A DNA stretch of 6,633 bases from an uncultured delta proteobacterium (GTDB lineage Bacteria; RBG-13-61-14; DRUE01), in contig CAIYYW010000059.1 in assembly GCA_903930515.1 (NCBI GenBank), forward strand, positions 1 through 6,633. Direction: 5' to 3'. The translations under genes were made by a program, and so were the position numbers. The notes below the pieces were generated by a model. The model was not told the DNA's origin, ran no database searches, and saw only the letters and a list, made by a program, of their open reading frames with translations. Shown piece after piece: positions 1,305 to 6,633 of this stretch (positions within the stretch are counted from its first letter, which is position 1; each line of letters starts with the position of its first letter).

Positions 1305-2915
1305 ATGAAGACAGAAATCAAGGAAAAAACAACGAAGATTCCCGGCCGGAAAATCGCAGGATTAATGACCTGGTTTTTGGTCTTAATTTTTGCCGCGGCG
1401 ATCTCGGTCCCAGCCGTTCCGGCCTTTGCCTCAGCTCAGATTATTTTCAATCCCTCGGTTAAGAATTTGCCTTCAAACGAGGAGATCTTCGGCTGGATCA
1501 AAGATATCTGCAATTTCGGATACCGGCGGCCGGGCACGGCTGAAGACCGGAAAACGGTTGAATACATCCTGAAGAAATTTCAGGAGTTCGGGCTCAAGGA
1601 CGCGCGCCTGGAGCCGATCAATATGCCGCTCTGGACTGCGGAGAAATGGAGCCTTTCGGTCAACGGCAAAGGAATCCCCTGTTTTTATATAAACCATTCT
1701 TACTGGATCAAGGAGCACGAGGGGTTCACCGCGGGTCCCCGGGGAATCACCGCGGAAATCGTTTACATTGGAGAAGGGTCGGAGAAGGACTTCTCAAAGG
1801 TGGATGTCAAGGGAAAAATCGTGCTCAGCGATGTGCGCTTCACTGAACTTTATCAGTCCGATTCCGAGCGGGTCGCGTATTTTTCCTATGACCCGGACCA
1901 TACCGTGGCTAAGGGCTGGCGCCAGTCCAATCCCTATTCTCCGAACAATTTCCCGTCCAATTTCTCCAGAGCCGCTCAACACGGGGCAGTTGGGTTTGTG
2001 GGAATCCTCACCGACTATTTTGACCGCAACACCTTTTACAACGAACTCTACGAGGAGAAACCTTGTTTGTGGCCGATCCCGGGATTATGGCTGAGCAAGT
2101 CCGACGGCGCCAGGCTCAAGGAAATGCTCAAGGCCGGTTCCGCAAACCAGGCCACCCTGGTCCTGGACGGAACCATCAAACCGGCCACCGCCTACAATGT
2201 GATCGGCTGCCTGCCCGGAAAATCAAAGGACATAATTATGGTCCATTCCCACCACGACGCGCCCTGGGCGAGCGCGGTGGAAGACGCATCCGGCGTTTCC
2301 GAGGTCCTTGCCCTGGCCAAATATTTCGGATCGCTCCCTCCCGAGAAGCGCGAAAAAACCCTGATGTTCGTCAGCCTTGATACCCACTTTTCAATGTATC
2401 AGGGACACCTGGACCTGATCCGTCAGGTCCGCGAAAAAAATATGAAGGTCCTGGTTGACATCGTGATTGAGCATATCGGCAAGGAGGTCGTGGAAAAGGA
2501 CGGCCGGGTGGTTGAAACCGGGTTTGAAGAGCCGCGGGGTATTTTTGTGACCGAGAACCCATACCTGATTTCCATCACCAAGCAGGCGGTGGAAAAAAAC
2601 CATTTGGGCCGCACCGTGATCCTGCCCACTTACACCATCCTGGGGGTGCCCACGGACGCGGGCGATTTCAACCGCGAGGGATTCACCATCATCAGCTACA
2701 TCAGCCCGCCCCAATATATTTACGACCCGATTGACACCCCGGAGATGGTGGCATTCAACCAGCTTAACCCGGTGGCATCCACTTTTGCCGACATCATAGA
2801 GTCAATGGACCAGACCCCGTCGCAGACCGTCACCAAAAAGTGGTGGATCCCGAAATACCGGTTCCATTATTATTACCAGGTGGTGGACTATATCGTTGAC
2901 ATGCTCCGGGAATAG
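1305..2915 (+). CDS. Exported M28-family (Zn-peptidase-like) protein with PA-like insert and altered active site
   Basis: The protein has 536 residues. Residues 1-44 are a Sec signal peptide: a basic N-terminus, a hydrophobic core at about 18-40, and a probable cut after AFASA. The front part of the catalytic domain (about 55-130) includes RRPGTAEDRKTVEYI. A PA-like insert spans about 140-290, with VKGKIVLSD and RAAQHGAVGFVGI. The M28 core then resumes at about 296 (AYNVIGCLPG). Metal-site signatures visible are HxD at H316/D318, the bridging Asp in EDASG (D327), D385 in VDIVIEHIG, and the TDAGDF segment before the last motif. The usual Glu-Glu pair aligns with H361-F362 in LDTHFSMYQGH. The final zinc His aligns with Y473 in YIYDPIDTP. 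It is therefore M28-like by fold but may be inactive or use other ligands. The C-terminal 26 residues form a Trp/Tyr-rich tail. First gene of the operon; the penicillin-acylase gene starts 41 bases after its stop. Natural substrate unknown. Confidence 0.85.
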   Translation: MKTEIKEKTTKIPGRKIAGLMTWFLVLIFAAAISVPAVPAFASAQIIFNPSVKNLPSNEEIFGWIKDICNFGYRRPGTAEDRKTVEYILKKFQEFGLKDARLEPINMPLWTAEKWSLSVNGKGIPCFYINHSYWIKEHEGFTAGPRGITAEIVYIGEGSEKDFSKVDVKGKIVLSDVRFTELYQSDSERVAYFSYDPDHTVAKGWRQSNPYSPNNFPSNFSRAAQHGAVGFVGILTDYFDRNTFYNELYEEKPCLWPIPGLWLSKSDGARLKEMLKAGSANQATLVLDGTIKPATAYNVIGCLPGKSKDIIMVHSHHDAPWASAVEDASGVSEVLALAKYFGSLPPEKREKTLMFVSLDTHFSMYQGHLDLIRQVREKNMKVLVDIVIEHIGKEVVEKDGRVVETGFEEPRGIFVTENPYLISITKQAVEKNHLGRTVILPTYTILGVPTDAGDFNREGFTIISYISPPQYIYDPIDTPEMVAFNQLNPVASTFADIIESMDQTPSQTVTKKWWIPKYRFHYYYQVVDYIVDMLRE

Positions 2916-2956: not shown

Positions 2957-5608
2957 ATGCGGAATAAATTAAGCCTGATCCAGGGGTTTTATATTTTGCT
3001 GGTCCTGGCCGCGGCCGCGGGCTGCGCGATCCGGTCCATGCCCGGTTATGAAAAGCGCCCTACCCTGCCCCAGGTGAGCGGAGACCTGGCCGTGCCCGGC
3101 TTGAACGGCCCGGTCCAGGTATATCGCGACCATTACGGCATCCCCCATATTATCACGCCGGACGAGCACGACCTGTTCTTCGCCGACGGATATGTCCAGG
3201 CCCAGGACCGCCTCTGGCAGATCGTGCTGTTCCGCGCCGTGGCCATCGGGACCCTCAGCGAGATTTTCGGAAATGTCGGAGTGCCGGGAATGACCCTTGA
3301 GGGCATGAACCTGTCCACCCTGGAGATGGACCGCCACGAGCGCGTGCTGGGCATCAATTTCCTGGGGCAGGCCGGCGAGATCATGCTCGCTAAAAAGGAC
3401 CCGCGCGTCCTGGCCCAGCTCCAGGCCTATTGCGACGGCATCAACGCCTTCATCAAGCAGAACCAGGGCCATCTGCCCATTGAGTTCCAGGTCCTATATT
3501 ACCAACCCGAGCCGTTCCGGCCCGCGGACATCATCGGCCTCTCCCGCTTCTACGGACTCGTGCTCACCGGCAATATGAACACGGAACTGACCCGCTACGC
3601 GATCGCGCAAAAATACGGAGAGGACCTGGCCTGGAAACTTTTGCCCCTTGATCCCTCCCTGGGCCCGACCATCGTTCCCAAAGAGATGCTCAAAAACCGG
3701 TTGCCAAAGCCGCGTCCGCTCCCGCCCGGCGGCCGGCCCGACCCTTCGCTCACCGGACTCAGCCCGGAAGCGGCTATGAACATCGCGCAGGCCGATCAGG
3801 CGTTTCGCTCGGCGTCATTTTTCCCGAGTATATGGGCCAGCAACAATTGGATGGTCGGCCCCAAACTCACCGCCACCGGCGCCGCCATGCTCGCCAATGA
3901 CTCGCACCTCTATCATATGGAGCCGTCCTTGTGCTACCTCCTCCACCTCCAGGGCGCCGGGTTTGATACCTACGGCGCGGTCCTGCCCGGAATGCCCTAT
4001 GTCATTTTCGGGCACAACCGCAAACTGTCCTGGGGCATCACGGTCTCGGGCGCGGATGTCCAGGACCTGTTCATGGAAAAAACCGACCCGTCGCATCCGG
4101 GAAAATATTTTTATCGGGGGGAGTGGAAGGATTTCACGGTTAGGAAAGAAACGATCCGGGTGCGGCCCGGGCTTGTCCAACTCGGCCCGACCCGGCGCTT
4201 CCGCGAGGAAGTGATTGAAATCCGGTCCACCATCCACGGCCCGATCATCAACGACGCAGTCCCCAAACTCCCGGCCAACACCCCCCTGCTCGCCCTGCGC
4301 TGGACCGGGTATGATTTCTCGGACGACCCGGTTATGTCCGAACTCCTGACCGGTTCCGCCAGCCCGGAACAGTTCCGGGAAAAACTTGAACGGATGGACC
4401 TGACCAAAATAAACATGCTCAACAACGGCGCTATGTTTGACCTCTTGAACCGCGCCCAAAACATCCAGGAATTTGTCCAGGCCATGCAGCTCAACGATGT
4501 GACCAATATGAACTTCGGCGCCGCGGACGCCGACGGGCATATCGCCTATTTTCTCAGCGGCCTGGTGCCCATCCGCAAAAAAGGGTTCGGCGCCATGCCC
4601 GTGCCCGGCGAGAACGGCGATTACGACTGGACCGGGTTTGTGCCCTCGCTTGAACACCCTTATGCGATTGACCCGGAGCGCGGCTTCCTCGCCACCGCCA
4701 ACAACCGCGTGGTGGATATGCAATGGTATCCATACCTGATCGCCACCAACTACTCCGATGGGTGGCGCGCCTGGCGGATTGAAGACCTGATCAAGCGGAA
4801 CCAGCCGCTCACCGTGGACAAAATGGAAAAGATCCAGAACGATATTTATGTCAAGCAGGCCGAAATTTTTGTGCCCCTGATCCTCAAGGCGGTGGACAGC
4901 AAAAAAGTCACGGATAAAAAAATCCTCGCCGCCGCGGAAATCCTCCGGAAATGGGACCTGGAGGCGAGCATGGACAGCCTTGCCCCCGCCATTTATTACG
5001 AGACCATCCGTCACCTGACCGACCGCGTGCTCAAGGATGAGTTAGACGCCAAGGATTACGGCCTGGTTAAGGGCGCCGCGTTCCAGGCCGTGGAGTCATG
5101 GGTGGTGCAGGGCAAGTCGGAATTTTTTGATGACAAGAAAACCCCGGACCGGGTGGAGGATGTCAACGATGTTTTGGTCGCCTGCCTCGGAGACGCCGTG
5201 CAATGGCTGACCAAGGCCATGGGCAAGGATATGGACCAGTGGCAGTGGGGCAAAATCCATACCCTCAAGTGGTATCACCCGATGGGGTTTATGGCCCTGA
5301 AAGAGATGAGCATAGGCCCCTTCCCCCACTCGGGCGGGGACCAGACCGTGCGCGCGGCCAAGCCCATTGTGATCGGCAAGCGATACCTCACCATTCACGG
5401 CCCGGTCGTCCGCCATATTATGGATATGAACGACCCCGACCATGCCCGGATTATGATTGACGGCTCCGAGTCCGGACAATGGCTCTCGCCCCATTACCAG
5501 GATATGCACCGTCTCTTTTACCAGAGCCAATACCTGACCGCGGACTTAAACCTGGACCGGATCAAGGCCTCTGCCGAGTCCGTGCTTACCCTTACCCCCG
5601 GGAAATAA
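2957..5608 (+). CDS. Penicillin acylase family (Ntn-hydrolase) lipoprotein
   Basis: The precursor is 883 residues, a typical size for the family. Residues 1-23 form a lipoprotein signal ending in AAGC, so the protein should be anchored by C23 in the envelope. The alpha-chain signature follows: VYRDHYGIPHI (55-65) and FADGYVQAQDRLWQ (75-88). A Pro-rich stretch at about 250-265 leads into the probable spacer peptide. The nucleophile is S295 in ASNNW; the precursor should cut itself before this Ser, leaving an N-terminal catalytic Ser on the beta chain. Then come TGAAMLANDSHL (307-318) and GITVSGADVQDLF. N582 (ATANNR) and R604 (GWRAWRI) lie 22 residues apart, the same spacing as catalytic Asn241 and Arg263 of the E. 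coli penicillin G acylase beta chain. The C-terminal ESGQWLSPHYQD is also typical. The family hydrolyses amide bonds of acylated compounds (beta-lactams, acyl-homoserine lactones, other N-acyl amides). Which of these it uses cannot be read here. Residue -1 to the cut is Ala instead of the common Gly. It sits between the M28-like and esterase genes. Confidence 0.93.
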   Translation: MRNKLSLIQGFYILLVLAAAAGCAIRSMPGYEKRPTLPQVSGDLAVPGLNGPVQVYRDHYGIPHIITPDEHDLFFADGYVQAQDRLWQIVLFRAVAIGTLSEIFGNVGVPGMTLEGMNLSTLEMDRHERVLGINFLGQAGEIMLAKKDPRVLAQLQAYCDGINAFIKQNQGHLPIEFQVLYYQPEPFRPADIIGLSRFYGLVLTGNMNTELTRYAIAQKYGEDLAWKLLPLDPSLGPTIVPKEMLKNRLPKPRPLPPGGRPDPSLTGLSPEAAMNIAQADQAFRSASFFPSIWASNNWMVGPKLTATGAAMLANDSHLYHMEPSLCYLLHLQGAGFDTYGAVLPGMPYVIFGHNRKLSWGITVSGADVQDLFMEKTDPSHPGKYFYRGEWKDFTVRKETIRVRPGLVQLGPTRRFREEVIEIRSTIHGPIINDAVPKLPANTPLLALRWTGYDFSDDPVMSELLTGSASPEQFREKLERMDLTKINMLNNGAMFDLLNRAQNIQEFVQAMQLNDVTNMNFGAADADGHIAYFLSGLVPIRKKGFGAMPVPGENGDYDWTGFVPSLEHPYAIDPERGFLATANNRVVDMQWYPYLIATNYSDGWRAWRIEDLIKRNQPLTVDKMEKIQNDIYVKQAEIFVPLILKAVDSKKVTDKKILAAAEILRKWDLEASMDSLAPAIYYETIRHLTDRVLKDELDAKDYGLVKGAAFQAVESWVVQGKSEFFDDKKTPDRVEDVNDVLVACLGDAVQWLTKAMGKDMDQWQWGKIHTLKWYHPMGFMALKEMSIGPFPHSGGDQTVRAAKPIVIGKRYLTIHGPVVRHIMDMNDPDHARIMIDGSESGQWLSPHYQDMHRLFYQSQYLTADLNLDRIKASAESVLTLTPGK

Positions 5609-5642: not shown

Positions 5643-6633
5643 ATGCCGCGCAAAGAAATTTATCTAGCGCTTATGGCCGCGCTCCTGTGCCTGGCCGCCG
5701 CGCCCGGAACCTTTGCCGGCCAAAACGATTGCAGCGCGCCGGTCTTGACCGCTTACGGACCGGTGAGCGGGATCAGCGAACCTGCGGCCGCGGCTTGCGG
5801 ATTTAAAGGCATTCCCTTTGCAGCGCCCCCGGTCGGAAACCTCCGCTTCCGGCCCCCCCAGCCGCCTTTGCTCCATCACGAAGTTTTTAAAGCCGACGCG
5901 TTCCCGCCCTGGTGCCCGCAAAAATTTGATCCCACCATCCTGGGTATGAACCAGCGCAACACCCGGTCCAGCGAGGACTGCCTGTATTTGAACATCTGGC
6001 GGCCGAAAAACCCGGGCCAGGGGCCAATGCCGGTAATGTTCTTCATCCACGGAGGAGGGTTCCTGGCCGGGTCAGGCGCCACCGGGATGTACCACGGCGA
6101 ACGGCTGTCCGCCAAGGAAAAGGTGGTGGCGGTCACCATCAACTACCGCCTGGGCGTGCTCGGGTTCCTGAGCCTGCCCGCGCTTTCCGCCGAAGACCCG
6201 CGCCACAGCTCCGGCAATTACGGCATGCTTGACCAACTGGCCGCGCTTGAATGGGTGAAACAGAACATCGCCGCGTTCGGAGGCGACCCCGGCAATATCA
6301 CCGTCTTCGGCGAGTCCGCCGGCGGTTGGAGCGTGTGCAACCTGCTCGTATCCCCGCTCTCGGCAGGTCTTTTTTCCAAAGCCGCGATCCAAAGCGGCGG
6401 TTGTGATACCACCAAGACCCTTGAGGAGGGCTATCAGGACGGAGATCGGTTCGCGTCAATACTGGGGTGCTCGGGAGAGCATCTCCTCTCCTGCCTGCGC
6501 GGCAAGAGTGCGGAGGAAATCCTGGCGGCCCAGAACCGGGGACCGAAGGGCAGCGTGTGGGACTTGAAGGGCATGCTCAAATATACCTGGATCCCGAAGG
6601 AGGACGGCTGGCTGCTCAAAGAGTCTCCGATCA
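5643..6633 (+). CDS. Partial exported type B carboxylesterase (C-terminus beyond window)
   Basis: An open frame runs from the ATG at 5643 to the right edge, giving 330 residues of a family usually about 500-550 long. Residues 1-26 form a Sec signal peptide with a probable cut near TFAG. Type B carboxylesterase (alpha/beta hydrolase) signatures follow in order: FKGIPFAAPPVGNLRFRPP (54-72), SEDCLYLNIW (110-119), the oxyanion-hole HGGGF (136-140), VAVTINYRLGVLGFL (162-176), GNYGMLDQLAALEWVKQNI (191-209) and the nucleophile elbow GESAGG with S225. C91 and C113 fit the first conserved disulfide of the family, and C254 and C276 may form the second. The catalytic Glu (or Asp) and His lie beyond the edge. 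It hydrolyses carboxylic esters outside the cytoplasm; the substrate is unknown. It follows the acylase gene by 34 bases and probably shares its transcript. Its ribosome site is weak, so translation may depend on the gene before it. Confidence 0.93.
   Translation, partial: MPRKEIYLALMAALLCLAAAPGTFAGQNDCSAPVLTAYGPVSGISEPAAAACGFKGIPFAAPPVGNLRFRPPQPPLLHHEVFKADAFPPWCPQKFDPTILGMNQRNTRSSEDCLYLNIWRPKNPGQGPMPVMFFIHGGGFLAGSGATGMYHGERLSAKEKVVAVTINYRLGVLGFLSLPALSAEDPRHSSGNYGMLDQLAALEWVKQNIAAFGGDPGNITVFGESAGGWSVCNLLVSPLSAGLFSKAAIQSGGCDTTKTLEEGYQDGDRFASILGCSGEHLLSCLRGKSAEEILAAQNRGPKGSVWDLKGMLKYTWIPKEDGWLLKESPI

Follow-up and report, generated by a model that had tools for sequence, protein, structure and literature searches.

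A putatively exported M28-fold protein from a conserved subfamily with an apparently rebuilt active site that may hold a single metal

Genes at the locus

The window, i.e. the whole stretch of 6,633 nucleotides analyzed here, carries the following genes and features:

2-796, - strand: gene truncated at the contig end, whose exported product contains RCC1 repeats and a metal-binding motif of the MopE type
1078-1163, - strand: tRNA-Leu (taa), flanked by the RCC1 gene and the M28 gene
1292-1300, + strand: Shine-Dalgarno-like AAAGGAGG, by direct reading; a strong site 5' of the ATG at 1305
1305-2915, + strand: gene for an M28-fold protein with a remodelled active site, by open reading frame and translation; 536 amino acids plus stop
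2957-5608, + strand: lipoprotein-like gene of the penicillin amidase family (Ntn hydrolase); PF01804, E 7.6e-196
5643-6633, + strand: gene for an exported type-B carboxylesterase that runs off the contig end; PF00135, E 1.3e-92

The 536 amino acids of the M28-fold protein, hereafter the window protein, are encoded at 1305-2912 on the + strand, and the stop codon ends at 2915. A signal peptide-like segment near the N-terminus (residues ~16-43, ...PAFASA) suggests that this protein is exported. The penicillin amidase gene starts 41 bp downstream of the M28-fold gene. A search of the three window genes against the PADLOC defence families gave no match.

Fold and family of the window protein

M28 is a textbook family of two-zinc peptidases. 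The window protein reached the gathering score of PF04389 (24.0 vs 21.3 bits, E 3.6e-5) with a match limited to residues 298-359; relatives belonging to group II, as described below, scored 36-39 bits. An AlphaFold2 model built from 16 relatives had a pTM of 0.84 and a mean pLDDT of 81. The closest fold match of this metal-free model was BSAP 6hc6 (VIA-align Z 32.1, rmsd 3.0, 377 residues aligned), followed by a match to 2ek8 with Z 31.3. Two AlphaFold2 models were compared; Z for 6hc6 ranged from 32 to 34, and the matches of the first model were similar. Furthermore, 2ek8, 3iib and 6hc6 were the top solved sequences for a profile of six relatives. The window protein thus clearly has the complete fold of the M28/PA-domain aminopeptidases, and the M28 fold that an earlier note on this DNA had recognized from the sequence was borne out by model, fold match and Pfam cut-off; its motifs were all found in place.

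The transferrin receptor also appeared among the structural and profile matches. Since its Z of 26-29 lies below that of the PA-domain zinc aminopeptidases, it was rejected as a close relative and regarded as a fold relative only. Weak Pfam matches to Alpha-amylase (E 0.003) and PEP_mutase were under the cut-off and were read as chance. The window protein did not reach any curated NCBIfam cut-off, a single chance match falling far below, and NCBIfam returned no family for L002, L017 and L032.

Mapping of the active site

Active-site residues were assigned with reference to the Aeromonas aminopeptidase (AAP) by two mappings. The first was a profile alignment with the solved M28 enzymes 2ek8, 3iib and 6hc6; the second, independent one was a MAFFT alignment with canonical M28 proteins of the window's own and related genomes. 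Both mappings agreed. The motifs, as read from the translation, and the assigned residues are as follows:

From 2244, + strand: HSHHD, residues 314-318
2250-2258, + strand: H316-x-D318, the first zinc His (AAP H97, site 1) and the second-shell Asp, both retained
From 2280, + strand: EDASG, residues 326-330
2280-2285, + strand: E326-D327, with E326 for the bridging Asp (AAP D117, site 2) and D327 corresponding to AAP D118
From 2376, + strand: LDTHF, residues 358-362
2385-2390, + strand: H361-F362, with H361 for the general base (AAP E151) and F362 for a Zn1 ligand (AAP E152, site 3)
From 2469, + strand: EHIG, residues 389-392
2469-2474, + strand: E389-H390, with E389 for the Asp that binds Zn2 (AAP D179, site 4) and H390 corresponding to AAP M180
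From 2652, + strand: TDAGDF, residues 450-455
From 2715, + strand: YIYD, residues 471-474
2721-2723, + strand: Y473 for the last zinc His (AAP H256, site 5); relatives have Tyr or Leu here
From 2733, + strand: DTPE, residues 477-480

In the profile alignment 'ghf' fell on 'GAEE', and H361 and F362 therefore replace the Glu-Glu pair; Y473 fell on the last zinc His of 'WYHTPNDT'. Active M28 peptidases have the five zinc ligands H, D, E, D and H, at which the window protein has H316, E326, F362, E389 and Y473; where a general-base Glu precedes the third ligand, H361 is found instead. Only H316 is retained; of the six positions with a catalytic or ligand role, five rather than three are altered, because E326 and E389 also replace Asp ligands.

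The earlier note had proposed that the Glu-Glu pair and the last zinc His are replaced; an alignment with solved M28 members, which it had suggested, upheld both replacements, and the MAFFT mapping agreed. Its assignment of D327 and D385 as kept metal ligands was rejected: the alignment with the three solved enzymes gave E326 and E389 at these ligand positions, D327 corresponds to AAP D118, and D385 varies within the family. H368, listed there among possible substitute ligands, lies outside the positions invariant in group II.

Conservation among relatives

Group II comprises eight proteins, including the window protein, from at least two phyla, with pairwise identities down to 28%. Members from the window's phylum, among them a paralogue from the same genome, are 74% and about 34-36% identical to the window protein. 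A protein from a proteobacterial metagenome contig shows 43% identity, and those from two genomes of another phylum show 39-42% identity and carry DTHF, VEHIA or IEHIA, and YLYDNxDT. Viral contigs yielded no confirmed relatives.

E326, H361, F362, E389 and H390 are invariant in all eight group II proteins. Invariant core columns number only 31 of 204, and the probability that five given core columns are all invariant is about 6e-5. When group II was compared with six canonical M28 proteins over the whole alignment, exactly four columns were invariant within each set but differed between the two, all of them catalytic (326, 361, 362 and 389), in line with the clustering of changes that had been read from the single sequence. 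Comparison with the 74% homologue gave a dN/dS of ~0.12 (dN 0.17, dS 1.37), a ratio that is only approximate because dS is high.

The swaps are fixed across group II and dN/dS is low, which argues strongly against decay and for an M28-fold subfamily with a conserved rebuilt site. The homologue search proposed in the earlier note thus found the catalytic swaps kept in relatives, including the DTHF...YLYDNxDT form in another phylum, and its preference for a distinct subfamily over decay was substantiated.

Sister groups and a possible order of changes

Two further groups were distinguished. Group I (G311, G173 and G026) has all five zinc ligands intact, with only the general base changed to His (motifs HPGHELL, LDGxG and WYHTExDT). 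Group III (G320, the G332 genus, G053 and G598) carries GHF, or QHY in one case, together with EHLG, and has lost further motifs. Alignment A3 contains 16 proteins from groups I-III, every one of which has H316, D318 and H361. The tandem M28 gene next to the closest homologue of the window protein (L003:7551-9095) likewise reads SHE, its C-terminus being partly masked. At L012, L013 and L016, M28 proteins with intact zinc ligands were found in which the general-base Glu is replaced by His (PGHELL); the L012 protein has a C-terminal PKD domain fused to the M28 part. These three proteins and group I are natural counterparts of the AAP mutant E151H. On the - strand at L038:8941-11291, an M28-like gene of group III abuts an APH-type phosphotransferase gene.

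Sister lineages seem intermediate, some having the base changed to His with the ligands kept and others having His-Phe with other changes. Replacement of the base Glu by His may have come first, followed by loss of the Zn1 ligands with the Asp-to-Glu changes. This order is only a suggestion because groups I and II are weakly supported in the tree (74/87 for group II); group III forms a single clade with support of 100/99.

Gene neighbourhood

COesterase or CocE genes adjoin five of the eight group II loci. The window carboxylesterase is 58% identical to the one beside the closest relative, where a second M28 gene and then the carboxylesterase lie downstream (L003). At L028 the homologue lies 12 bp behind three COesterases. 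In two genomes of the other phylum, G726 and G1012, a CocE/NonD-type S15 hydrolase adjoins the M28 variant on opposite sides, with a gap of 0 bp where the M28 variant lies behind CocE and of 18 bp where it lies before; the whole genomes hold only three and two S15 genes, respectively. The CocE/NonD hydrolases at L035:6537-10247 and L036:8825-12520 are 63% identical, and the M28 variant is paired with them in opposite gene order. The open literature yielded no paper describing a pairing of M28 and CocE genes. Signal-like N-termini suggest that the CocE enzymes and the window enzymes are exported.

Nineteen COesterase matches were counted in the window's genome, and the families of the neighbours are numerous in its phylum. 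G000, G001 and G002 each have 14-19 type-B carboxylesterase and 5-8 penicillin amidase matches. The lineage of the window seems rich in exported acyl/ester hydrolases. Three of the eight group II loci (L002, L004 and L006) have no esterase or CocE neighbour. Because the neighbour families are numerous and these three loci are without such a neighbour, a shared breakdown of acylated or esterified small molecules by the neighbours and the M28 variant is suggestive only.

Proposed metal site and activity

In M28 enzymes, sites 2, 3 and 5 bind the Zn1 ion, whereas the ligands of the Zn2 ion are sites 1, 2 and 4 (PMC7522609 Table 1; PMC11312887). Both ligands that serve Zn1 only (AAP E152 and H256) are gone from group II, being F362 and Y473 or Leu, and the Zn2 ligand positions remain, with H316/E326/E389 for His/Asp/Asp; the simplest reading would therefore be one Zn2-type metal. 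A single divalent metal may be held by H316, E326 and E389, with H390, the second conserved His beside E389, or H361 as a possible fourth ligand. The strictly conserved H361 at the general-base position could act as the base that activates water. We know of no solved M28 precedent for His/Glu/Glu at the Zn2 site. An E151H mutant of AAP is reportedly functional, as Bzymek et al. described in 2005, and His can thus serve at the base position. The title of PDB entry 2anp also names a functional E151H mutant. Searches of the open-access literature returned no account of an M28 subfamily in which His replaces the base Glu.

The window protein is probably a working enzyme with a one-metal or metal-free rebuilt site, because identical swaps persist in at least two unrelated bacterial groups. 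Ordinary aminopeptidase action appears unlikely, since one metal and the canonical site would be lost. The recurrent serine-esterase/acylase neighbours, taken together with the lost canonical site, point to an ester, a carbamate or a non-peptide amide as the substrate. It would be hydrolysed in the periplasm or extracellularly, as part of a pathway that the M28-fold protein may share with its esterase and acylase neighbours. Judged from sequence and predicted structure, the window protein most likely hydrolyses non-peptide amides or esters by means of a single metal or a His-based mechanism, and it may carry out a new chemistry. The leading reading, to which we give close to an even chance, is that of an exported hydrolase with the M28 fold, from a conserved subfamily in which the two-zinc site was rebuilt to hold one metal. 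The more detailed proposal of one metal in a Zn2-type His/Glu/Glu site, a His base, non-peptide amides or esters as substrates and CocE or carboxylesterase enzymes as partners is tentative and rather doubtful as a whole.

The main rival, somewhat unlikely in our judgement, is a non-catalytic M28 fold that uses its cleft to bind a peptide or small molecule, or to tether a partner hydrolase, the conserved His and Glu residues forming the binding site. M28 folds lacking ligands can be pure binding proteins, e.g. the transferrin receptor, which is among the structural and profile matches, and most catalytic residues of the window protein are replaced. However, the replacing His and Glu are themselves potential ligands or acid-base groups, and in a pure binder the lost positions would be expected to drift, whereas here the replacements are invariant at 28-74% identity across two phyla with so few invariant core columns.

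An enzyme that still holds two metals, with H361 and H390 standing in for the lost Zn1 ligands in a shifted arrangement, is improbable. New invariant His residues do occur at the positions of AAP E151 and M180, adjoining old ligand positions, and both the bridging and the Zn2 acid have become the longer Glu, as would suit a displacement of the metals; yet with Phe at E152 and Tyr or Leu at H256 no ordinary Zn1 ligand is left beyond the shared bridging acid. A metal-free hydrolase using H361 with H390, E389 or E326 as an acid-base pair appears about as improbable, if not slightly more so. Although two ligands of one zinc are gone and two new invariant His residues lie in the site, the invariance of the classical zinc His H316 and the second-shell D318 in all 16 proteins fits metal binding better. 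Gene decay with loss of function in one lineage would account for the lost catalytic residues, but it has almost no chance of being correct and was ruled out by the conservation pattern, i.e. identical substitutions in all group II relatives at a dN/dS of ~0.12, and by an intact exported reading frame with a strong ribosome site and intact relatives in several other genomes.

If the one-metal or a metal-free reading holds, the concerted swap at five of six catalytic positions, together with the sister lineages, could be used to test how a site for two metals turns into one for a single metal or for none. If active, a natural M28 enzyme with a His base would be the evolutionary counterpart of the engineered E151H aminopeptidase. 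Furthermore, the automatic label 'M28 peptidase' is likely wrong for proteins of the group II type.

Comparison with known systems

The residue combination of the window protein is absent from glutaminyl cyclase, DUF4910, GPAA1 and AAP E151H. The closest systems are BSAP/YwaD (6hc6), the Aneurinibacillus aminopeptidase (2ek8), AAP (1amp) and SGAP, which have in common with it the fold, HxD and the closing DT; a PA-like insert precedes the catalytic part in the window protein as it does in 6hc6 and 2ek8. In contrast to these two-zinc M28 aminopeptidases, the window protein has E326 for D, H361 for the base, F362 and E389 for ligands, and Y/L for His.

Glutaminyl cyclase is an M28 protein that binds one zinc, in the Zn1 site only (sites 2, 3 and 5), although its five ligands are all intact (PMC11312887, PMC7522609). 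It resembles the window protein in its M28 fold and in the single metal expected there, but the window protein reverses the arrangement, sites 3 and 5 being lost and sites 1, 2 and 4 remaining. At the Zn1 ligands D159, E202 and H330 of glutaminyl cyclase (PMC11312887), the window protein has E326, F362 and Y473.

DUF4910 (CA_C2195) is an M28-like protein with lost catalytic residues and a single zinc, for which a non-peptidase role was proposed; its zinc ligands are H189, D195 and H324, Ser/Pro replace the active-site Asp/Glu, and it has a wHTH domain (PMC4000134). It differs from the window protein in the retained ligands and in the wHTH domain, and PF16254 (DUF4910) did not match the window protein in the Pfam listing to E 1. 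The M28-like GPI transamidase subunit GPAA1 has Tyr at site 5, Glu at site 4, Pro at site 1 and Asp at site 3 (PMC7522609 Table 1). The first two of these residues are shared with the window protein, which differs in having H316 rather than Pro at site 1, and F362 at site 3 where GPAA1 is acidic.

In the AAP mutant E151H (2anp), His occupies the general-base position, as it does in the window protein. The mutant is changed at the base only and in this respect resembles group I, whereas in the window protein four zinc ligands are lost or changed in addition.
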